Assembly (NCBI GenBank): GCA_013214355.1
Contig: JABSSL010000089.1
Location: 1 to 64,000 of the forward strand
Length of the DNA stretch: 64,000 nt
Direction: 5' to 3'
DNA from: Saprospiraceae bacterium
GTDB taxonomy: Bacteria > Bacteroidota > Bacteroidia > Chitinophagales > Saprospiraceae
Position numbers and translations under genes: made by a program. Positions within the stretch are counted from its first letter, which is position 1, and every line of letters starts with the position of its first letter. A model generated the notes under the pieces. The model made no database searches and had not been told where the DNA came from. It saw nothing but the letters and a program-made list of their open reading frames with translations. This document shows positions 15,415 through 62,674 of this stretch, one piece after another.

Positions 15415-18400
15415 ATGTTGAAATTCTACCCACTCACCTTACTAGTCTTCTTTTTCTCTTCGGCCTGGGCACAAAAGCCCGAGTTAGTGCTGCCGACTGG
15501 CCATTCCAAAGATATTACCTCGATCTCTTTTTCTCCCGATGGTCAACAAGTGCTCACTGGAAGTCGAGACCAAACCGCCATATTGTGGAGTATCACCGGA
15601 GATCAACTCGTGGTACTTTCTGGACATAATAATGTCATTTTTGCCGTTGCTTTTTCTCCCAAGGAGAAAATACTAGCCACCGCTAGCGCGGATCAAACCA
15701 TCAAACTGTGGGATTTGGAAGGGAATGTACTAAAAACCTTTAGCGGGCATACTTCTTGGATCAAATCACTACAATTCTCACCTTCAGGAAAAGAGCTACT
15801 TTCCGGGAGTTTGGACCAAACGGCCAAGTTATGGAATTTGCAGGGTAATGTTTTACGCACTTTCTCTGGGCATGAAGCAGGAATAAATACGGTTGATTTC
15901 TCAGCGGACGGAAAGAGCATCTTGACCGGTAGCAGAGATCAAACGGCCAAACTTTGGGAGGTAGCCACCGGAGAACTTAAGCAGACTTTTTCTGGTCATA
16001 CGGAAGAAATCACTGGTGTGCAGTTTGCCCCAGGAGCTGACCGTTTACTCACGGTAAGTGCCGATCAATCCATCAAGATTTGGCGAATTGATGGTACTGA
16101 AACCCAGGAACTAAAAAGTAAGGATGATGAAATCACAGCTGCTGCTTTTTCAGCAGATGGAAAGAGCGTGGCCGCAGGCCTTTGGAGGTCATTCGGAGGA
16201 GTCAGAGGAAGAGTTGGCTCGTTTGATCTCGAAAATGGCCAACTAGACGTATATCACGCACACGACTGGCCGATCAAGGCTATTGCCTTTTCACCAGATG
16301 GTTCTAATCTATTGACCGGAAGTTCAGATGATCAGGCAAAACTATGGAATCTCGATGGCAAACTCATACAGTCCTTTGCAGGAAAAGTAGCTGCCATAAA
16401 CTCAACCGCTTTTACTCCTGATGGCGAAAAAATTCTAATGGGGACCTGGTTTGACGGAGCCAGTCTTTGGAATTTGAGAGACCGGAAATTCACCTATTTC
16501 AAGCCTATTCGACCTAACACTTCAGATTTGGTGGCCATTTCACCAGATGGCAATAACATATTGACCGCTGGTATCCAAGGCGGTTTCTTGTGGGATTTTG
16601 ATGGCAACAAGCTGCAAGAGATTTCAAACCCAAAGAATTGGGGGGGCAATTTCAAATCGGTTGCCTTTTCACCAGATGGAACAAAAATTCTGACTGGATC
16701 CGAAGGTAATAACACTTCGCACCTATGGGATCTCCAAGGTCAACTACTAGCCAGTTACGAGGGACAAAGGTCATGGATACCAGCTGTGGCTTTCACGCCT
16801 GATGGGCAATCCGTACTAATTGGCAATAGCGTGGGTGAGGTCAAACTGTGGGATTTACAAGGTAATCCGATTCGTAACATCAGTAATAAGTTGGGGGATT
16901 TACATGCATTGGCCATCTCCTCAGACGGTAAGATGGTAGTGATACGGCATGGCCATAAGGTCGCCGAATTATGGACGATAAATGGCGAAAACTTACGTAC
17001 GTTAAGAGGTCACAGCCAAGCCGTTCGGTCCGTTGCCTTCTCTCCCGATGGCCAGTACATTGTAACGGGTAGTCAAGACAAAACTGCCCGACTTTGGGAC
17101 TTGCAAGGCCAACTCATTCACGAATTCAAAGGACATAACTCAAGCGTTTCAGGAGTAAGCTTTACCCCCAATGGTAAGCACCTTATGACCGTTTCGGGAG
17201 GAGCCTTGAGAATCTGGGATGCCATGACCGGTTCACAAAAATGCCTGTTATTGCCCTTTAAAGATGGAGAATGGGTAGTGACAACACCTTCTGGACTCTT
17301 CGATGCCTCAGCTGGAGCCTTTGACCAATTACACTATCGAATTTATGATCGTTCAGAGCAGTCCTACGAAGCCATTGATGTAGAACAACTCAAAGCAAGG
17401 TATTATGAACCCGGTTTATTAGATAAAATCCTCGGTTACTCTGAAGAAAGCATTAGGCCAGTACAAGATTTCGGTGAATTGGACCTTTACCCTCGCGTCG
17501 AAGCAAAGATCGATGGAGATGTACTGAGCGTTACATTAGAAGAACGTAATGGCGGAATTGGAAAAGTGAGCGTTTTCGTCAATGGTAAAGAGGTAGCCGA
17601 AGAGATCAATCCCCTGCCAAGGCGCGAAAATCCAGAACGGGCAAAGTCGATTGCTTACGATCTCTCACAACACCAAAACTACCTGCTTTCTCATCCAGAT
17701 AGTACCAATATCGTTAGCATCAGAGCCTATAACGAAGCCGGTTGGCTAAAAAGCAGGGCTGTCGATCTGGTGTATTCAGCCAGTTCTTCTAAGGGAATTT
17801 ATGATCAAACTGCGGGCCAGGCTCCAGATTTGAATAGATGGCTTCACCCAAAACTCTTTGTCGTAACCGTTGGGACTTCGGATTATGCCGGCTCCAACCT
17901 GGATTTAAAATATGCGGATCAAGATGCCATGATGATGGCATTAGCGCTAGAATCAGCTGGCTCGAAACTCTTTGAGCGGGGCCGTTCAGGAGAAACCAAT
18001 TTAGAAGTTTATTGCTTCTCTACCACTGAATCTGATGCCAAAACCCTTTCGGATGCCGGCATAGTGTGGCAGTCTCCGGCAAAGCAAAATATCGAAGCTA
18101 CCTTCGAGCAGATCAAAGCCAAAGCCAAAGCTGAGGATGTGCTAGTACTCTACATGTCTGGCCATGGAGTAACACAGAGTGAAAATGATCAGACCCAATT
18201 CTACTACTTAACCAAAGGAATTGGCAGTGAGGATGCGCTGGGAGATCCAGGCCTCAGAGATGCTTTTACCATCTCCAGCGAAGAGCTAACCCAATGGATC
18301 AAAGATATCCCCGCTCTTAAGCAAGTCATGATCATCGATGCTTGCTATTCGGGACAGGTGGTGCAGAGCCTCATGGGAGGATCTAAAAGATTGAGTTCCA

Positions 18401-19098
18401 ACCAGGTCAGAGCCTTAGATCGCATGAAAGATCGCACCGGGCTTTTCATCCTTTCTGGGAGCGCATCAGATAAGGTAAGCTGGGAAGCCAGCGGATTTGG
18501 TCAAGGTCTTCTTACGTATTCATTATTGAAAGGCATGAAGGGAGTGGCAGCAAAAAAGACTCCTGATGGTGAGACCATTGATGTAATGAAGTTGTTTCAA
18601 TATGCGCGGGATGAGGTTCCAAATCTTGCCAAAGGTATCAATAGGATTCAAACACCAATGATGGGTTTCCCTACCCACGGAGCTAGCTTTGACATTGGAA
18701 TCTTAGATGATGATATCAAATCTACCATCCAATTGAGTGATAATAAACCTATTGTCATCAAGAGCAACTTCATGAATCAAAAGACACTGCGTGATGATCT
18801 GGGGCTAGAGGCACGTCTGGAAAAACTGTTTCGGAAAGAAACGGCTAGGGGAAGAGACGCAGATGTGATTTACGTTGACGTTAGTGAGTATCCTGGTGCT
18901 TGGTCCGTCGGAGGGCTCTACGAAATTTCGGACAATAAGGAGACAGGGTCGGGAAGGGAAGCAAAAAAAATTACACTCAAGTTATTTAAAGGGACGGAAG
19001 AAGAAATTCCGATTCAAATTGATGATCCTGAGCCAGATGTGGAGGATTTAGCCCTACAGATTTTCGAGGCGATTATTGATGAATTATTGTGGCAATAG
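15415..19098 (+). CDS. Exported WD40-caspase (C14 peptidase) protein
   Basis: A 1227-residue protein with an N-terminal signal peptide (LTLLVFFFSSAWAQ), so it probably acts outside the cytoplasm. Residues about 25-600 contain roughly 14 WD40 repeats, enough for two seven-bladed propellers; intact ones read GHxxxVxSVxFSPDG...SxDxTxxLWD. A beta-rich linker follows (about 600-800). The C14 caspase-like domain begins near residue 815 (PKLFVVTVGTSDY). The catalytic pair is H917 in YMSGHGV and C977 in IIDACYSGQ. A 160-residue C-terminal tail has no recognised domain. Caspase-like proteases of this kind cut after basic residues. The gene stands alone; its neighbours are housekeeping genes. Confidence 0.9.
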   Translation: MLKFYPLTLLVFFFSSAWAQKPELVLPTGHSKDITSISFSPDGQQVLTGSRDQTAILWSITGDQLVVLSGHNNVIFAVAFSPKEKILATASADQTIKLWDLEGNVLKTFSGHTSWIKSLQFSPSGKELLSGSLDQTAKLWNLQGNVLRTFSGHEAGINTVDFSADGKSILTGSRDQTAKLWEVATGELKQTFSGHTEEITGVQFAPGADRLLTVSADQSIKIWRIDGTETQELKSKDDEITAAAFSADGKSVAAGLWRSFGGVRGRVGSFDLENGQLDVYHAHDWPIKAIAFSPDGSNLLTGSSDDQAKLWNLDGKLIQSFAGKVAAINSTAFTPDGEKILMGTWFDGASLWNLRDRKFTYFKPIRPNTSDLVAISPDGNNILTAGIQGGFLWDFDGNKLQEISNPKNWGGNFKSVAFSPDGTKILTGSEGNNTSHLWDLQGQLLASYEGQRSWIPAVAFTPDGQSVLIGNSVGEVKLWDLQGNPIRNISNKLGDLHALAISSDGKMVVIRHGHKVAELWTINGENLRTLRGHSQAVRSVAFSPDGQYIVTGSQDKTARLWDLQGQLIHEFKGHNSSVSGVSFTPNGKHLMTVSGGALRIWDAMTGSQKCLLLPFKDGEWVVTTPSGLFDASAGAFDQLHYRIYDRSEQSYEAIDVEQLKARYYEPGLLDKILGYSEESIRPVQDFGELDLYPRVEAKIDGDVLSVTLEERNGGIGKVSVFVNGKEVAEEINPLPRRENPERAKSIAYDLSQHQNYLLSHPDSTNIVSIRAYNEAGWLKSRAVDLVYSASSSKGIYDQTAGQAPDLNRWLHPKLFVVTVGTSDYAGSNLDLKYADQDAMMMALALESAGSKLFERGRSGETNLEVYCFSTTESDAKTLSDAGIVWQSPAKQNIEATFEQIKAKAKAEDVLVLYMSGHGVTQSENDQTQFYYLTKGIGSEDALGDPGLRDAFTISSEELTQWIKDIPALKQVMIIDACYSGQVVQSLMGGSKRLSSNQVRALDRMKDRTGLFILSGSASDKVSWEASGFGQGLLTYSLLKGMKGVAAKKTPDGETIDVMKLFQYARDEVPNLAKGINRIQTPMMGFPTHGASFDIGILDDDIKSTIQLSDNKPIVIKSNFMNQKTLRDDLGLEARLEKLFRKETARGRDADVIYVDVSEYPGAWSVGGLYEISDNKETGSGREAKKITLKLFKGTEEEIPIQIDDPEPDVEDLALQIFEAIIDELLWQ

Positions 19099-54650: not shown

Positions 54651-55502
54651 TTAGTGCGGAAATACCTCAACGGCCCGCTGCATGGCTTTCCCAAATAGCT
54701 CTACGTCTACCCCATAGGCTTCTTCCTTTTCTCCAAAGTAAGCCACTAAGTTCTCCATCGGCATATTCCCCGTAAGATCATCCTTAGCCATAGGACACCC
54801 TCCGTAGCCTTTAATGGCTCCATCAAATCTCCGGCAACCATTTTCAAAAGCAGCAACCACCTTCTCTTTCCAAGCTTGTGGCGTAGTGTGGAAATGAGCC
54901 CCAAACTCCAGCGTAGGATAGGCTGGCAACAACTGGCTAAACAGATAACTGATACTTTCCGGGCTAGCAACACCAATTGTATCTGAAAGTTGAAAGATCT
55001 TAATATCCAGACCGACCAAACGATCTACCCATTTACTTACAATATCAACATTCCAGGGGTCGCCATAGGGATTACCAAATCCCATCGAGACGTATAGAAC
55101 TAGCTCCTTATTGTGTGTTTTGCAAATCTCCTGAATGTCTTCAACTCTCTCCAGAGATTCTTCTATAGTTGAGTTCGTATTTCGCATTTGAAAGGTCTCC
55201 GAGACGGAGAAAGGAAAGCCTAAATAATCAATCTCAGGGAATTGTATTGCGTCATTGGCCCCTCGTCGGTTCGCTACAATAGCTAATAACTTAGAGGAAG
55301 TATCGGACAGATCTAAGGCTGAGAGAACAGATGCAGTGTCTCGCATTTGTGGAATCGCCTTGGGAGAAACAAAACTCCCAAAATCAATGGTATCGAAGCC
55401 CACTTTAAGCAGCTGGTTGATGTATGCTGCTTTGGTCTCAGTTGGAATAAAGGTTTTGAGACCTTGCATGGCATCTCTTGGACATTCTATCAACTTTACC
55501 AT
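54651..55502 (-). CDS. Hydroxymethylglutaryl-CoA lyase
   Basis: A 283-residue HMGL-like TIM-barrel enzyme that cleaves HMG-CoA to acetoacetate and acetyl-CoA in leucine and ketone-body metabolism. The motifs LIECPRDAMQGLKTFIPTETKAAYIN, FDTIDFGSFVSPKAIPQM, the YLGFPFSVSETFQ region and the catalytic-loop GCRRFDGAIKGYGGCPMAKDDLTGN are all seen. The Cys in GGCPMA is the catalytic loop Cys of the family. The length is slightly shorter than most. It reads opposite to lpxB. Confidence 0.9.
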   Translation of the reverse strand: MVKLIECPRDAMQGLKTFIPTETKAAYINQLLKVGFDTIDFGSFVSPKAIPQMRDTASVLSALDLSDTSSKLLAIVANRRGANDAIQFPEIDYLGFPFSVSETFQMRNTNSTIEESLERVEDIQEICKTHNKELVLYVSMGFGNPYGDPWNVDIVSKWVDRLVGLDIKIFQLSDTIGVASPESISYLFSQLLPAYPTLEFGAHFHTTPQAWKEKVVAAFENGCRRFDGAIKGYGGCPMAKDDLTGNMPMENLVAYFGEKEEAYGVDVELFGKAMQRAVEVFPH

Positions 55503-57069: not shown

Positions 57070-57095
57070 ACCCGTACCTGGGGGGAGGTACGGGT
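57070..57095 (-). terminator. Second terminator downstream of the short peptide ORFs
   Basis: ACCCGTACCT (57070-57079) pairs with AGGTACGGGT (57086-57095), 10 bp perfect, six-base loop, followed on the minus strand by a seven-base T-run. It closes the minus-strand transcript that carries the two short ORFs and also faces the plus-strand remnant ORF ending at 57057. Confidence 0.75.
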
Positions 57096-57163: not shown

Positions 57164-57189
57164 ATTGCCCCCCACTAGAGGGGGGCAAT
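57164..57189 (-). terminator. Terminator overlapping the 3' end of the 41-residue peptide ORF
   Basis: ATTGCCCCCC and GGGGGGCAAT are a perfect 10-bp inverted repeat with loop ACTAGA, followed on the minus strand by TTTTTG. The coding sequence for the last residues of the peptide forms one arm, and the stop codon (57175-57177) lies at the loop. Confidence 0.75.
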
Positions 57190-57300
57190 GATATCTACCA
57201 CAATCACACCTCCTTTTACATCTTTCTGTTCCAATTTTGATAACGTGACGTTCTGTACATTTAAGTTTTTTCCTTTTCTTCCTTTTGTGGTCGTCTTCAT
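57175..57300 (-). CDS. Short peptide with VIVVDIIAP C-terminus (41 residues)
   Basis: An ATG at 57300 opens a 41-codon frame. The N-terminal part is basic and polar (MKTTTKGRKGKNLNVQNV), followed by TLSKLEQKDVKGG and the end VIVVDIIAPL. The second short ORF 157 bases upstream shares VIVVDIIAP exactly. In those nine codons five positions differ between the ORFs and all differences are synonymous third-base changes, which argues for selection on the peptide. It has no membrane helix or signal peptide. A leader-plus-core layout, as in ribosomally made peptides or signalling peptides, is plausible. An intrinsic terminator overlaps its end. Confidence 0.7.
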   Translation of the reverse strand: MKTTTKGRKGKNLNVQNVTLSKLEQKDVKGGVIVVDIIAPL

Positions 57301-57457
57301 AATAAAGTAGAGTTTGAGTTGAGTTAGTTAATAATGGATACGAATACCCGTCGGGGTAGTTAAATGGGTTTTACTAGACTCAAATCGGTGGGATGCTTGG
57401 GTTAGATTTCAGGCAGATTAGACTGCAGTGATCGTCGTTCGTGGAATTACAAGTAGA
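57301..57457. other. Gap between the two short peptide ORFs
   Basis: These 157 bases hold only a small hairpin, TACCC/GGGTA at 57345-57358, and no other ORF or promoter match. The hairpin could modulate readthrough from the first ORF to the second, but this is a guess. Confidence 0.3.
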
Positions 57458-57550
57458 TTAAGCGCTTGGGGCGATGATGTCTACTACGATCACTTTATTT
57501 GCAAATCTTTCTTCCTGAACTACAGAGTGGAATCCGTAAATCTGTTTCAT
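57458..57550 (-). CDS. Short peptide with VIVVDIIAP C-terminus (30 residues)
   Basis: An ATG at 57550 opens a 30-codon frame ending in TAA. The peptide starts MKQIYGFHSVVQEERFANK and ends VIVVDIIAPSA. It shares the segment VIVVDIIAP with the 41-residue ORF downstream, and a loosely alignable S-x-x-(E/Q) helix before it. The N-terminal parts differ otherwise, as expected for a variable leader with a conserved C-terminal portion. The 50 bases upstream on the minus strand contain TATCTTGT (57598-57605), one mismatch from the TAnnTTTG box, a weak promoter candidate. No processing enzyme is encoded nearby. Confidence 0.68.
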   Translation of the reverse strand: MKQIYGFHSVVQEERFANKVIVVDIIAPSA

Positions 57551-57927: not shown

Positions 57928-59493
57928 TCAAGCATGCACCTTTCTAGCTGTTGACCCCGCTCTTTGCGGTTGCTTTCGATAAAACTTATTCTCTAGTGAA
58001 TCAATCACTAATTCCCACAATTCTTCATAAGGAATGATCTCAATCTCATGCGACTGTTTGGCCACATCCAAAGGCATTCCCTTCAATCGGTTCAAGAACT
58101 TAGCGGTCTTGCGTTCGACAGCTGCCTTATGAAAACTACAAGCAGGAATCTGCAAGAGCATTTTTATAAAACAGTTGCTTCTAAAAGTATCATCCTTAGT
58201 TAGATACCTTGAACAATACTTCTCAATCGCTTCAATGCGATCGATCGCAGAATTGTAGTTACGCTGGAGGATCATGAACAGAATCTGCACTACTAGGATC
58301 GGAATATTCATTCCGCGCTTATCCTTTGAGTAGATAGGCGTTCCATTCAAAAAGCGCCCCAAACGAAACTTAGTAAAGTGTTTATCTTTCTTGCTTAGCT
58401 TGACTTTCTGGATAATGACTAGGTAATGAATATAAGCTTCAAAAATCTTCCACATTTCCTTCACATGCTCTGGCAAAAAGGCAAAGCGCTTATGGTCATT
58501 AACCTTGTGAAACAGCTGGTAGGCTTTCTGATATTGATGCGTGTGCATCATTAGCATTAAGTAAAGCTCTTGGTACTTAAACCAATTGAACGATCCTTCT
58601 GTCAGAACCTCCAGGCAGCTTTCCGCCGCAACCCGTCCCTCTTCGTACTGTTTCAGCTGAATATGGCATACCAACAGCTGGTAGTAGAAGATTTGTAGAG
58701 GCATACTCGCCAGGTAATTCTTTCTTTCAAAGAATTCAATGCTTTCCTGGCAAATTACGGCTGTTTCTTTATAATTATTAACACTTGAATACTGCGTCAA
58801 CTTGATCAAAGTAGCACACAAGTGTAGTCTATATGTCTGATATTTACTTAAGCTTTCCTGTAGTCTTTCGTAGTACTCCTTAGCTTTATCCTGGATTAAA
58901 TCATCCGTAGCCTTAATGTTAGTGTAGCGGAGAACTAGCTCTGTATAGAGCTCCTCTGCCAGATCTTCCCAGGCAATGATCTCAGAATATTCCTTGAAGA
59001 GTTCGTTATACTGCTCAAACTTCTTCAAGTTTCCCTCCAGGGTGCCAAAGTGTACTCTTAGGGTACGAGCTACATCTACAGTAAGCTCCGTAAATTCGTA
59101 CTTTTTAGCCCTTTTTAGTATGTTAAAGCTTAGATTGACACCGGCTCCGGAGGCGTTCTTGCCAAATAGAATCTTGGCAGCAGCCCAATCCCGGCAGCAT
59201 TCGTAAAATGCTTGGTATCGGTTTGAGTGGGATGGTTCTTTAGAGTTAAGGAAGAATAGATGGTTTACCAACTTCCTTTTCAGTTTGTGTCTTAGTTTTT
59301 GGTAAGCAGGATGAGATTTGTCTTCTCCGTAAAAGAATCGGGCGGCATCTTCATCTGTTAGAAACTTATTGTCTAGGAGACCTTGATAAAAGATCTCAGT
59401 CCTAGATTTTTCTTTTGATGTAGCATCCAACAGTTCGACATTCTTGAGTCGATTGTTGTTCACGATAAGTGCCAATTCCCGAAGTACCTGCAT
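57928..59493 (-). CDS. Helical-repeat (TPR-like) protein next to the short peptide ORFs
   Basis: A 521-residue soluble protein with no signal peptide. The first 100 residues form a compact helical domain, with NKFLTDEDAARFFYGEDKSH and KLRHKLKRKLVNHLFFLNSK near residues 42-85. The remaining 400 residues are a chain of helix pairs with TPR-like spacing (YQKAYQLFHKVNDHKRF, QYEEGRVAAESCLEVL). The KLKRKLVNHLFFLN block resembles KAHLYKQLLTSLRLLN in the neighbour at 59784, so the two appear to be distant paralogues. I do not know the function. The length and layout recall peptide-binding TPR regulators, but no DNA-binding domain was identified. The codon usage is like the neighbours. Confidence 0.65.
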   Translation of the reverse strand: MQVLRELALIVNNNRLKNVELLDATSKEKSRTEIFYQGLLDNKFLTDEDAARFFYGEDKSHPAYQKLRHKLKRKLVNHLFFLNSKEPSHSNRYQAFYECCRDWAAAKILFGKNASGAGVNLSFNILKRAKKYEFTELTVDVARTLRVHFGTLEGNLKKFEQYNELFKEYSEIIAWEDLAEELYTELVLRYTNIKATDDLIQDKAKEYYERLQESLSKYQTYRLHLCATLIKLTQYSSVNNYKETAVICQESIEFFERKNYLASMPLQIFYYQLLVCHIQLKQYEEGRVAAESCLEVLTEGSFNWFKYQELYLMLMMHTHQYQKAYQLFHKVNDHKRFAFLPEHVKEMWKIFEAYIHYLVIIQKVKLSKKDKHFTKFRLGRFLNGTPIYSKDKRGMNIPILVVQILFMILQRNYNSAIDRIEAIEKYCSRYLTKDDTFRSNCFIKMLLQIPACSFHKAAVERKTAKFLNRLKGMPLDVAKQSHEIEIIPYEELWELVIDSLENKFYRKQPQRAGSTARKVHA

Positions 59494-59688
59494 AATAATC
59501 CCTTTTCTGAAATATACGGATAAAACTTAATATCATCAGTCACCTAAGATAATAAGTTTCCGCGTATGTTTATTCATATTCAATTGTGCAGGTAGCCTTA
59601 CAAAGCAGTTGGGGGGACCCCAATGTTTCTTGAGATATGTTTTGATTAGCGCGTTGTTATAATGTCTGGAACAAAAGTACGAAACCTC

Positions 59689-59715
59689 CAAATTAAAAGT
59701 TATTCATTTGCTCAA
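59689..59715 (-). promoter_or_regulatory. Candidate promoter of the TPR-like gene
   Basis: On the minus strand TTG (59713-59715) is followed after 17 bases by TAATTTG (59689-59695), close to the Bacteroidota consensus TTG-N17-23-TAnnTTTG but lacking one T. It lies about 195 bases before the start at 59493, in a 290-base gap that also carries a TTGGGG/CCCCAA hairpin at 59609-59623. Confidence 0.3.
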
Positions 59716-59783
59716 TTTTGTGACATAGTATTAGGAGATTAGAAGCTTAGTTGCTGGAGCGTGTGCATGTCTTGAGTAAGGCT

Positions 59784-61343
59784 TTATACTGATTTGTCTT
59801 CAATACGTTTCAAAAATTTGCGTCGAATTATCGTTTGTACCGCAGTTTCTTCAATTTTGCTCTCCAACCACGATATAATATCCAAGTATAGGAAGGGTCT
59901 TCGCTCAAAGGGTTGATCCTCAAGTTTAACCAGTTTTTCCCTTAAACTTAGGAATTCTGACTTCATCTCGGGCTCCCTCATCTTAGGTGTTTTACGCAAA
60001 AAACGGAAGATTTCTCGCTGTACTCCATGCAAATCTTCCATTTTTGACAAGAATCGATACACGGATTTCACCTGATATTCAACTAGTTGCGCATTTCCAA
60101 GTTCAAAATGAGCAATTAAATTTAAAATTCTAGCAAAACATTGGATATCCTCCCGATAATCTGGATTTTTCTGATTAATAATCAAATTCAGATAATGGAT
60201 AGCCGTATCATTATCTCCACTACCAAAGTATAGGCAAGCAATTCGATAGTAAAAAATGAGGATTCGGTGATCGTCCCAATGATAACGTTCTGATTCAATG
60301 ATCTTGGTAATTTCTGGAGCCTGTGCAATTCCTTCCGAAAAAGTTCCTTCTAAATAATGCCGCTCTATGGTGTGGATATAAACAAAAAGATAGTACAAAC
60401 CTTCAATATTGTTATCCTGAGAGAGGTCGAATTCTTCCTTGAATTTCACCAACTTTTCAATCTTTTCTACAAATCGGCTATGCTGCAAGGTATTAAATAG
60501 TGATCCAAGCAAGTTGTGCAAGCCTTTAAGATAGAGCGCCGCATCAATTAGCTTCATACTCGGGCTCTCATCAAAAAGCTCTACCCATTTCTGAGCATAG
60601 CGGTAAGCCATCGGGAAATCATGGGTCATGTGATAATACCAAAGGTAGCACTGACAATAATAGATCTTTCCCCAAAAACCTAAGGACTGAAAATCAATCT
60701 GAGGAAGATTGGAATTGAAAAACTCTCGAACAAAGTAGTAGTCTTTGCTATTTCGTACGTATCCTACCTTAAGATATAAGCCATACAACTGTAAGGCGAG
60801 ATTAGAGAATTGATTCGTCTCGGTAATCAACGCGTTAATTCGCTTGGTTTCATTCGTGAGGATTTCAGCCCGACCTTCTATGCTTTTGGTCACGTATTGA
60901 CCTTCGATCAGCTTTTCAAATTCAATGATGGTGAGTACCAAGGAGTCGAAGCGCCCTTTCTGTGCTTTAGCTTTAGCCTTATCTAACATCTCCAAACTTT
61001 GTCGGTAGAGGCCTTTACTATATAACACGCGTGCATAATCAACCATCTCACGAATCTGAATATCCTGATTGTGATTCTTATTGAGCAGCCTAAGGCTCGT
61101 CAACAACTGTTTATACAAATGTGCCTTGAGATTGGACAGCTGGCGCTTCTTAATCCCAGGAAGCTTCTTCAAGATCAGCTGTTCGTCGTACTGCTTATGG
61201 TGGTCCAAAAAATCAAACAATTGCAGAAATAGGATATCATCAGAAGATTGGTTCCTTCTAACGAACAGGCGAAAGTGTCTTTTTTCAGCTCGGGTGAGGG
61301 ACTTAATCAACTGGATGAGATCATCCGTTTTCTGTTTGGGCAT
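59784..61343 (-). CDS. Helical-repeat (TPR-like) protein, paralogue of the gene at 57928
   Basis: A 519-residue soluble protein. The N-terminal domain starts KTDDLIQLIKSLTRAEKRHF and continues RLFVRRNQSSDDILFLQLFDFL, a helix block that I recognise from many Bacteroidota proteins of unknown function. It ends with KAHLYKQLLTSLRLLNKN near residue 90. After that come helical repeats such as YSKGLYRQSLEMLDKAKAKA and GDNDTAIHYLNLIINQKNPD. It has no membrane segment. It is followed on the same strand by the paralogue, 290 bases away, and then by the short peptide ORFs. Functional partnership is inference from this order. Confidence 0.65.
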   Translation of the reverse strand: MPKQKTDDLIQLIKSLTRAEKRHFRLFVRRNQSSDDILFLQLFDFLDHHKQYDEQLILKKLPGIKKRQLSNLKAHLYKQLLTSLRLLNKNHNQDIQIREMVDYARVLYSKGLYRQSLEMLDKAKAKAQKGRFDSLVLTIIEFEKLIEGQYVTKSIEGRAEILTNETKRINALITETNQFSNLALQLYGLYLKVGYVRNSKDYYFVREFFNSNLPQIDFQSLGFWGKIYYCQCYLWYYHMTHDFPMAYRYAQKWVELFDESPSMKLIDAALYLKGLHNLLGSLFNTLQHSRFVEKIEKLVKFKEEFDLSQDNNIEGLYYLFVYIHTIERHYLEGTFSEGIAQAPEITKIIESERYHWDDHRILIFYYRIACLYFGSGDNDTAIHYLNLIINQKNPDYREDIQCFARILNLIAHFELGNAQLVEYQVKSVYRFLSKMEDLHGVQREIFRFLRKTPKMREPEMKSEFLSLREKLVKLEDQPFERRPFLYLDIISWLESKIEETAVQTIIRRKFLKRIEDKSV

Positions 61344-61510: not shown

Positions 61511-62674
61511 ATGTCGGACAATAAGATTTTCATTTTCGATACCACCTTAAGAGATGGTGAGCAGGTTCCGGGTTGTAAACTAAATACCCAACAAAAATTA
61601 GAAATTGCCAAAGAGTTGGAGCGATTGGGAGTAGATGTAATTGAGGCTGGCTTTCCTATTTCTAGTCCAGGGGATTTTGAAGCAGTAGCCCAAATTAGCA
61701 CTAACATCAAGAATCCAATCATCTGCGGTTTGTCCAGAGCAGTTGAAAAAGACATTAAAACGGCAGCAGAAGCCCTTAAATCTGCCCGCCGACCGAGAAT
61801 ACATACGGGAATTGGTACTTCTGATTCTCATGTCAAATTCAAATTGAAAACCACTCGTGAAAAAGTGATCGAACGTGCAGTAGCAGCTGTTAAATACGCT
61901 AAGTCTTTTGTAGAGGACGTAGAGTTCTATGCAGAAGATGCCGGTCGAACTGACAATGAGTACCTTGCTCGTGTGATCCAAGCTGTGGTTGATGCGGGAG
62001 CTACCGTATTAAATATTCCAGATACCACAGGCTATTGCTTGCCGGATGAATACGGTGCAAAAATCGCTTACTTAAAGGCTAACGTAAAAGGAATCCATAA
62101 GACGATCCTTTCTACCCATTGCCACAATGATCTTGGCCTAGCCACCGCCAACTCTATCTTTGGTGTGCGTAATGGAGCACGTCAAATCGAATGTACCATT
62201 AATGGGATCGGAGAAAGAGCAGGTAATACGTCATTGGAAGAAGTAGTAATGGTGATGCGACAGCATGCGCATTTAGGTTTCCATGACAACATCAACACCA
62301 AACTACTGAACCCGATTAGCCAATTGGTTTCTGATCGTATGGGTATGCCGGTCCAACCTAATAAGGCAATCGTGGGAACAAACGCCTTTGCTCACTCCTC
62401 TGGAATCCATCAAGATGGTGTGATCAAGAAACGTGAAACTTACGAGATCATTAATCCGTTGGATGTGGGAGTAGATCAATCGAAGATTGTACTAACAGCC
62501 CGATCCGGAAGAGCCGCTATCGCTTATCGCGCTAAAAATATCGGATACAACCTAACCAAACTGGAACTGGATAAAGTTTACGAACAATTTCTACAGGTTG
62601 CTGACCGCCAAAAGGAGGTTGGTGACGACGATTTGACAGACATCATTGGCAAGCTCAAGGGTGTCGCTGTTTAA
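61511..62674 (+). CDS. leuA: 2-isopropylmalate synthase without the C-terminal regulatory domain
   Basis: A 387-residue enzyme that condenses acetyl-CoA and 2-oxoisovalerate in the first step of leucine synthesis. The TIM-barrel motifs are [18 protein letters not shown] near the N-terminus, [44 protein letters not shown] and the metal site [18 protein letters not shown], with [16 protein letters not shown]. The protein ends soon after [16 protein letters not shown], where the regulatory domain of the usual 510-residue LeuA would begin. Feedback inhibition by leucine may therefore be absent or different. Homocitrate or citramalate synthase would look similar, but leuC follows directly. Confidence 0.9.

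Follow-up and report, generated by a model that had tools for sequence, protein, structure and literature searches.

Linear-peptide signalling through TPR receptors has been described from the Firmicutes and their phages. The systems in question are known as RRNPP quorum sensing and include the pairs Rap-Phr, NprR-NprX, PlcR-PapR, Rgg-SHP and AimR-AimP, in which a short precursor with a conserved C-terminus is encoded next to a TPR gene. To our knowledge, all RRNPP receptors but Rap carry an N-terminal helix-turn-helix. Their propeptides leave the cell by a Sec signal or in the manner of SHP. The RRNPP_detector survey covered only complete genomes of Firmicutes, together with viruses (PMC10075063). 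For Bacteroidota, a 2026 review presents N-acyl-cyclolysines (ACLs) as a signal, assigning signals of peptide nature to Gram-positive bacteria (PMC13419125); ACL signalling shares its phylum with the locus described below, and differs from it in using a small molecule. A survey of Bacteroidales RiPPs reports TPR-like genes from two clusters and mentions that, in other settings, such domains serve in pheromone binding (PMC10352776). No description of the peptide/TPR pairing presented below was found in searches of the open-licence literature.

The locus considered here lies in a genome of the Saprospiraceae (11.2 Mb in 224 contigs), within a stretch of 64,000 nucleotides which was analysed as a whole and is called the window (G000:C213:1-64000). 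Two short ORFs, termed pepA and pepB, share a C-terminal segment and follow the gene of a 521-aa TPR-like protein on the same strand. We consider it fairly probable that they are precursors of a short hydrophobic signal consisting of the C-terminal VIVVDIIAP, that the adjoining 521-aa protein is its receptor, and that the pair works like RRNPP quorum sensing.

The tandem peptide genes of the window

Along the minus strand, the genes are arranged in the order 519-aa protein (61343-59784), 521-aa protein (59493-57928), pepB (57550-57458), pepA (57300-57175) and terminator (57189-57164). The product of pepB (minus strand, 57458-57550) has 30 aa (MKQIYGFHSVVQEERFANKVIVVDIIAPSA) and can be written as MKQIYGFHSVVQEERFANK-VIVVDIIAPSA, where the core shared with pepA follows a polar leader of the MKQIY type. 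That of pepA (minus strand, 57175-57300), which lies 157 bases further on, has 41 aa (MKTTTKGRKGKNLNVQNVTLSKLEQKDVKGGVIVVDIIAPL), with a leader ending in LEQKDVKGG, of double-glycine type, and the core VIVVDIIAPL. No hydrophobic signal is seen in either peptide.

An earlier, sequence-only reading had described the two minus-strand ORFs, of 41 and 30 codons at this spacing and ending in VIVVDIIAPL and VIVVDIIAPSA, had counted five synonymous third-position differences, and had judged the pattern hard to obtain by chance. The ORF sequences confirm the description as well as the count: third positions differ in five of the nine common codons of VIVVDIIAP, every time synonymously, and in four of the first eight. 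When the residues of both peptides were shuffled 200,000 times, the longest common word had 7 residues and appeared once, and a word of 9 never arose. When the whole genome was searched with a degenerate VIVVDIIA pattern, pepA and pepB were the only two perfect matches. Three near-matches were rejected as peptides, one on C153 lying antisense within a long ORF, one at C164:7044 overlapping another ORF, and one on C10 being a 25-aa ORF with the motif at its N-terminus.

The strong intrinsic terminator (minus strand, 57164-57189) is formed by a 10-bp stem and a U-tract, and likely marks the end of the transcript; a second terminator-like hairpin is found downstream of pepA (minus strand, 57070-57095). 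Because the last codons and the stop of pepA sit inside the terminator stem, the DNA encoding its IAP(L) is also constrained by the hairpin. The window contains no Rfam family at gathering thresholds and no tRNA. Elsewhere in it, a WD40-repeat-rich protein of 1227 aa is encoded at 15415-19098.

Three further genomes of the genus were compared, and in two, G001 and G002, both ORFs are intact. The pepB protein is identical in these and in the window's own genome, the pairwise codon changes being 3, 1 and 2 synonymous and 0 nonsynonymous, and the intergenic DNA on both sides of pepB is 86-94% identical to that of the window. In pepA, the same comparisons give 11, 7 and 10 nonsynonymous codons, all of them in the leader, including a KGR in place of KGG in G001. 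The pepA tail is kept and is identical in DNA across the three genomes, so that by itself it is uninformative for dN/dS. The third of the compared genomes (G003, 80% complete) showed only a different KGG peptide. Among named relatives, the nearest are MAGs: Saprospiraceae bacterium MAG.096 (locus L086), with 96% identity in the 521-aa protein, and uncultured Lewinella sp. (L163), with 99% over the available C-terminal part. The window's own genome encodes two more KGG peptides, each divergent from a homologue of the 521-aa gene, namely MTSNSITINDFKGLVDELNTQEQKEVKGGIIEQDILVG on C203 and a 56-aa ORF ending in VKGGLVVTDVLAF on C33.

Short peptides beside related TPR genes

Of 120 Saprospiraceae genomes sampled, 100 encode a homologue of the 521-aa protein (E 1e-5), and it is mostly in this family that such homologues are found. 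Their flanks contain short ORFs with unrelated N-termini and with tails such as VIVVDIIGPKK, VIVIDTVAPGK, VIIIDITGV, VIIIDIAGV, IIVVDITGP, ITGLDLIGA and IIIVETTGP. The adjacency of a short peptide gene to a TPR gene is a feature which these loci share with RRNPP systems. Linkage was quantified in 79 loci from GTDB genomes with flanks of up to 5 kb, where the last 22 residues of each ORF were scored against VIVVDIIAP with BLOSUM62 at five thresholds; counts refer to 77 loci, with the same-genus L086 and L163 left out and the near-duplicates L104/L105 kept. At a score of at least 20, matches were found in 38 of 1646 ORFs on the strand of the TPR gene within 1.5 kb, as opposed to 3 of 1654 on the opposite strand, two of which are supplied by the near-duplicates, and 8 of 5239 at 1.5-5 kb. 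The corresponding numbers are 16, 0 and 2 at a score of at least 24, and 50, 11 and 44 at 16 or more.

A tail pattern, composed post hoc and fitted to the observed matches, was met in 50 of 1288 same-strand ORFs (distributed over 44 loci), 1 of 1307 on the opposite strand and 9 of 5741 far ORFs in 75 loci, L105 and L140 being left out besides L086 and L163. With the pattern frozen, the counts for 33 further loci, most of which are more distant, were 9 of 521, 2 of 558 and 2 of 1499 (two of the nine same-strand matches look spurious); Fisher tests on these ORF counts, which assume independent ORFs although the loci are related, returned p values of 0.03 against the opposite strand, which is weak, and 1.6e-4 against the far ORFs. 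These loci derive from 40 regions, of which two from the window's own genome were set aside, four were dropped as near-identical to loci already counted and one had no TPR gene by the cut-off.

A rule-based count over 116 TPR genes, L086 and L163 included, assigned a same-strand core peptide to 53 (control strand, 4), a divergent peptide with a hydrophobic leader to 18 (control, 6) and one or the other to 69. Two same-strand peptides are present at ten of the genes, two of these being the same-genus copies L086 and L163, and the same pair of tails recurs in L107, L124 and L231. L107 is a locus of the named strain Lewinella cohaerens DSM 23179, whose tails are IITVDTVSP and IIIVETTGP. In a phylogeny of 114 TPR proteins built with FastTree, of which 53 have a same-strand peptide, 17 a divergent one and 44 none by the rule, peptide class clusters, requiring 27 changes versus 47.7 when shuffled and a number as low in 0 of 200 shuffles. 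In the receptor group of C164 (L098, L099, L205), the peptide search gave one doubtful candidate, in L098. A phage origin was considered and rejected: four viral_contigs stretches match the search patterns and none of them encodes a relative of the 521-aa protein. Saprospiraceae-like TPR loci are also found in MAGs labelled Kordia, Nitrosomonas and Thermoanaerobaculia (L105, L110 and L159), records which may therefore be misnamed or contaminated.

Three types of leader were seen: short polar, double-glycine (KGG) and hydrophobic. The same-strand peptides mostly have a short polar leader, which begins with MKQIY in several. Peptides of the divergent type are encoded 5' of the TPR gene on the opposite strand, and combine a hydrophobic N-terminus like MLTAIIISILLSLGII with a linker and with tails of the kind IIIEDDYGI, IIITDDFGM and AIVTADISGI; a common hydrophobic N-terminus (LTAIIISILLSLGII-like) together with an acidic tail was seen in L096, L116, L136, L148, L218, L228 and L254. 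The KGG leader is shared by pepA and the peptides of C203 and C33. For the KGG peptides of G003, G017 and G032 (loci L032, L033 and L036), no gene of the 521 or 519 type is present in the stretches examined; their cores GITIDDTEVM, GFVIVDDIAGF and GFIIEDFVME are similar, and other ORFs of about 500 aa or of TPR-like appearance lie nearby.

Constraint acts on the protein level. Among 50 ORF pairs with an identical 8-aa tail, which include the window pair and close relatives, the average number of differing third positions is 3.6 of 8, that of first and of second positions 0.04 of 8 each, and across dozens of loci the tail is kept as N-termini vary. Both observations uphold the proposal of the sequence-only reading that selection acts on a leader-plus-core peptide. 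Its own refuting condition, that homologous short ORFs be missing or their frames disrupted, likewise turned out in favour of the proposal, in two of three same-genus genomes and at many other loci. TPR distance is correlated with tail similarity (r = -0.46, permutation p 1e-4, 43 receptors including that of the window; r = -0.41 for the 845 pairs at a distance >0.45), a correlation which is expected from co-inheritance alone for any linked genes. L098 and one ORF of L124 were left out here as unlikely peptides, and loci outside alignment A3 were dropped. This alignment has 66 members, 65 of the 79 loci and the window; L134, L148 and L157 contain a stop, and L090, L105, L115, L131, L132, L135, L138, L140, L150, L160 and L163 are absent from it.

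Beyond the family, a 521-type protein was identified in 18 of 296 genomes of the phylum (E 1e-20). Six of these genomes belong to family f43 of another class, where different peptides adjoin the TPR gene in four of the six: locus L195 contains four ORFs ending in LPYIIDRGEEN and L194 contains one, and single ORFs in L197 and L199 carry three repeats of (I/L)IDRGE(E/N/G)N. A degenerate IIDRGE pattern applied to ten genomes gave 11 matches in four of them, and none with the reversed control. All eight matches in G242, G246 and G227 lie within 1.3 kb of a TPR gene, and the three in G371 are located on a contig other than its two listed TPR genes. Near the TPR genes of seven other distant genomes of the phylum with a 521-type protein, no clear peptide was seen.

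The candidate receptor and associated genes

The putative peptide receptor (minus strand, 57928-59493) is encoded 5' of pepB and pepA. Its AlphaFold2 model is all-helical and of TPR type (mean pLDDT 88.3, pTM 0.81), with helices 31-40, 47-55 and 62-81 preceding the TPR array; residues 300-306 form a conserved GSFNWFK motif. A Foldseek search of the PDB ranked four AimR arbitrium receptors first, at E values of 3.2e-3 to 1.3e-2, none of which passes 0.001. A second look at the Foldseek list by VIA placed Rap-pLS20 with Phr* first (Z 17.6, rmsd 3.8, 273 aligned), with RapI at 16.8 and NprR at 16.5. Rap or NprR occupies nine of its top eleven rows; the remaining two belong to MalT, which ties with the first at Z 17.4, and to Rpn6 (16.4), and LGN comes next at 16.0. 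Since the Foldseek E values exceed 0.001, MalT ties and Rpn6 and LGN follow closely, general TPR likeness may explain the match. The predicted fold suggests a likeness to RRNPP receptors and, at most, a possible relationship.

Searches by sequence gave no counterpart. A profile of 66 sequences has no match in the PDB at E <=1, the 66 members of A3 show single TPR-type or stray matches to Pfam and no Rgg-type family, and the 521-aa protein matches none of the NCBIfam families, NF058569 included. No helix-turn-helix or DNA-binding domain was matched by Pfam in the protein or in the A3 members, and the peptides scanned received no Pfam or NCBIfam name above cut-off. The sequence-only reading had compared the peptides with hydrophobic signals of the Rgg type. 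As a statement on how the locus works the analogy is supported, because the neighbour is a TPR protein whose predicted fold is nearest to receptors of the RRNPP type; membership of the known family is no more than possible, as no solved chain is matched in sequence.

The second TPR-like protein, of 519 aa (minus strand, 59784-61343), is of a different family. It matches NCBIfam NF058569 (BT_2802_fam, 'ribose utilization protein') over its full length (E 8e-44, 150.5 bits), under the cut-off of 550. BT_2802 proteins presumably have a regulator role; on BT2802 itself, nothing was found in the open-licence literature. In contrast to the 521-type loci, the tail pattern was found in 0 of 1071 ORFs beside 519-type genes (27 loci, both strands, ORFs up to 75 aa in 1.5-kb flanks, limits not identical to those of the 75-locus count). 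As no core peptides occur near 519-type genes, the 519-aa neighbour is not counted as part of the system. G044, a genome of the same order, has 24 matches to it.

A third gene, for a protein of 135-194 aa with a motif like FGxPSxxCxGxGIC, lies within about 2.3 kb in 36 of the 79 loci (e.g., L087:7580-7993) and, over the whole, in about 40% of loci. It was found at 48 of the 116 TPR genes, in 42 of these together with a peptide by the rule, and a search of 60 genomes found it in 13. Neither Pfam nor NCBIfam supplied a name for the members scanned. The model is beta-rich and confident (pLDDT 90.0), and with a best Foldseek E of 0.6 and a best VIA Z of 4.6 the predicted fold has no clear PDB match in the lists obtained, though it may be a known one. 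No such gene lies beside the window pair, and the matches of the window's own genome are on C203 and C192. On C203 (L050:3849-8012, L303), a homologue of the 521-type TPR gene is divergent from a co-directional series of genes which encode a KGG peptide, the CxGxGIC protein, a NusG-like protein, a CmlA-type hydroxylase, a phosphopantetheinyl transferase and two NRPS proteins (2138 and 4118 aa). This is a paralogous module of peptide and putative receptor heading an NRPS cluster.

Alternative explanations and biological meaning

Under the signalling reading, the 521-aa gene and the two peptide genes, which are observed on one strand in a unit ending at the terminator over pepA, would be co-transcribed. 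The peptides would then be exported and cut by routes differing between loci in line with the leader types observed: a C39-type exporter for double-glycine leaders, a Sec-like route for hydrophobic leaders and some other route for polar MKQIY leaders. The window's own genome has three C39 peptidase matches and two SBP_bac_5 matches, which make double-glycine export and oligopeptide uptake possible. The C-terminal core would re-enter or stay in the cell and bind the TPR superhelix, as suggested by the constant core, the linkage, the parallel divergence and the predicted fold. Binding may alter the activity of the TPR protein and hence the expression of nearby genes, among which the NRPS cluster at the paralogous own-genome locus and the CxGxGIC protein (in about 40% of loci) would be candidate targets.

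The polar N-termini of pepB and most same-strand peptides, which are short and lack a hydrophobic stretch, and the co-directional arrangement of peptide and TPR genes would equally suit peptides which are never secreted, each tuning its TPR partner in the cell where it is made and serving no cell-to-cell signalling. Tandem or repeated cores are typical of secreted pheromone precursors. Such cores are found here, and the hydrophobic, signal-like N-termini joined to related acidic tails at 18 of 116 genes (control, 6), like the KGG leaders at other loci, point to export, so that we regard the purely intracellular role as unlikely. The KGG leader of pepA also raises the question of RiPP or bacteriocin precursors of a lanthipeptide-like double-glycine class, whose maturation, immunity or regulation would involve the TPR protein. 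In line with this idea, NF038153, the class I lanthipeptide leader, gives a weak match to the peptide of C203 (13.8 bits), and TPR-like genes occur in two clusters of the Bacteroidales RiPP survey (PMC10352776). The C203 score nevertheless remains under the cut-off of 22 and pepA, which resembles such precursors in its leader end KDVKGG, has no NF038153 match. Moreover, VIVVDIIAPL, lacking Cys, Ser, Thr and Lys, offers no modifiable residues, pepB, like most of the family, is without a double-glycine leader, no modifying enzyme is encoded by the neighbours scanned (54651-55502, 57928-61343 and 61511-62674), and what is kept across loci is the core and not the leader. A RiPP function is accordingly improbable in our estimate.

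It would be more surprising still if the common segment were a nucleic-acid feature, such as a binding site, an attenuator or a terminator element, open in one frame by accident. The pepA tail does overlap the terminator stem and is identical in DNA in three genomes; the changes in pepB, however, are synonymous only, and in identical cores from other loci nearly half of the third positions are changed, first or second ones hardly ever. This codon pattern leads us to reject an RNA element for the core, and we attach very little probability to it.

With the RRNPP systems, the locus has in common the short precursor with a conserved C-terminus adjoining a TPR gene; a further likeness, seen outside its class, is the repetition of the core within a single precursor. 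The top structural matches of the predicted receptor model are AimR, Rap and NprR, at the E values given above and with MalT tied. A short hydrophobic, beta-branched core with an Asp is what we take to be its likeness to Rgg-SHP, from which it differs in the lack of an Rgg-type family among the Pfam matches. Further differences are the occurrence in Bacteroidota and not Firmicutes, the size of the receptor candidates (about 500-530 aa) and their lack of any sequence match in the PDB at E 1, the presence of three leader types, the recurrence of loci with two peptides, and the additional CxGxGIC gene. A hydrophobic N-terminus, in keeping with RRNPP export, is limited to a minority of loci, and pepA has a double-glycine leader instead. 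Taken together, this suggests a working principle resembling RRNPP; what is apparently new is the set of families, the phylum, the types of leader and the third gene.

The wider proposal is of an undescribed, phylum-wide pheromone family of Bacteroidota, which would probably comprise hundreds of receptor-ligand pairs, with several in a genome, a different core for every pair, interchangeable export leaders and often two competing or cooperating peptides and a CxGxGIC partner. The pairs would control neighbouring genes, NRPS clusters included, as an evolutionarily separate Gram-negative counterpart of RRNPP; we hold this proposal to be evenly balanced between true and false. If such a separate system exists in a major Gram-negative phylum, the peptide/TPR solution arose or spread more widely than thought. 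It would also provide many ready-made ligand-receptor pairs whose specificity may be readable from sequence, as well as a handle for switching on silent natural-product clusters; in this genome, the NRPS cluster of C203 is headed by such a module.
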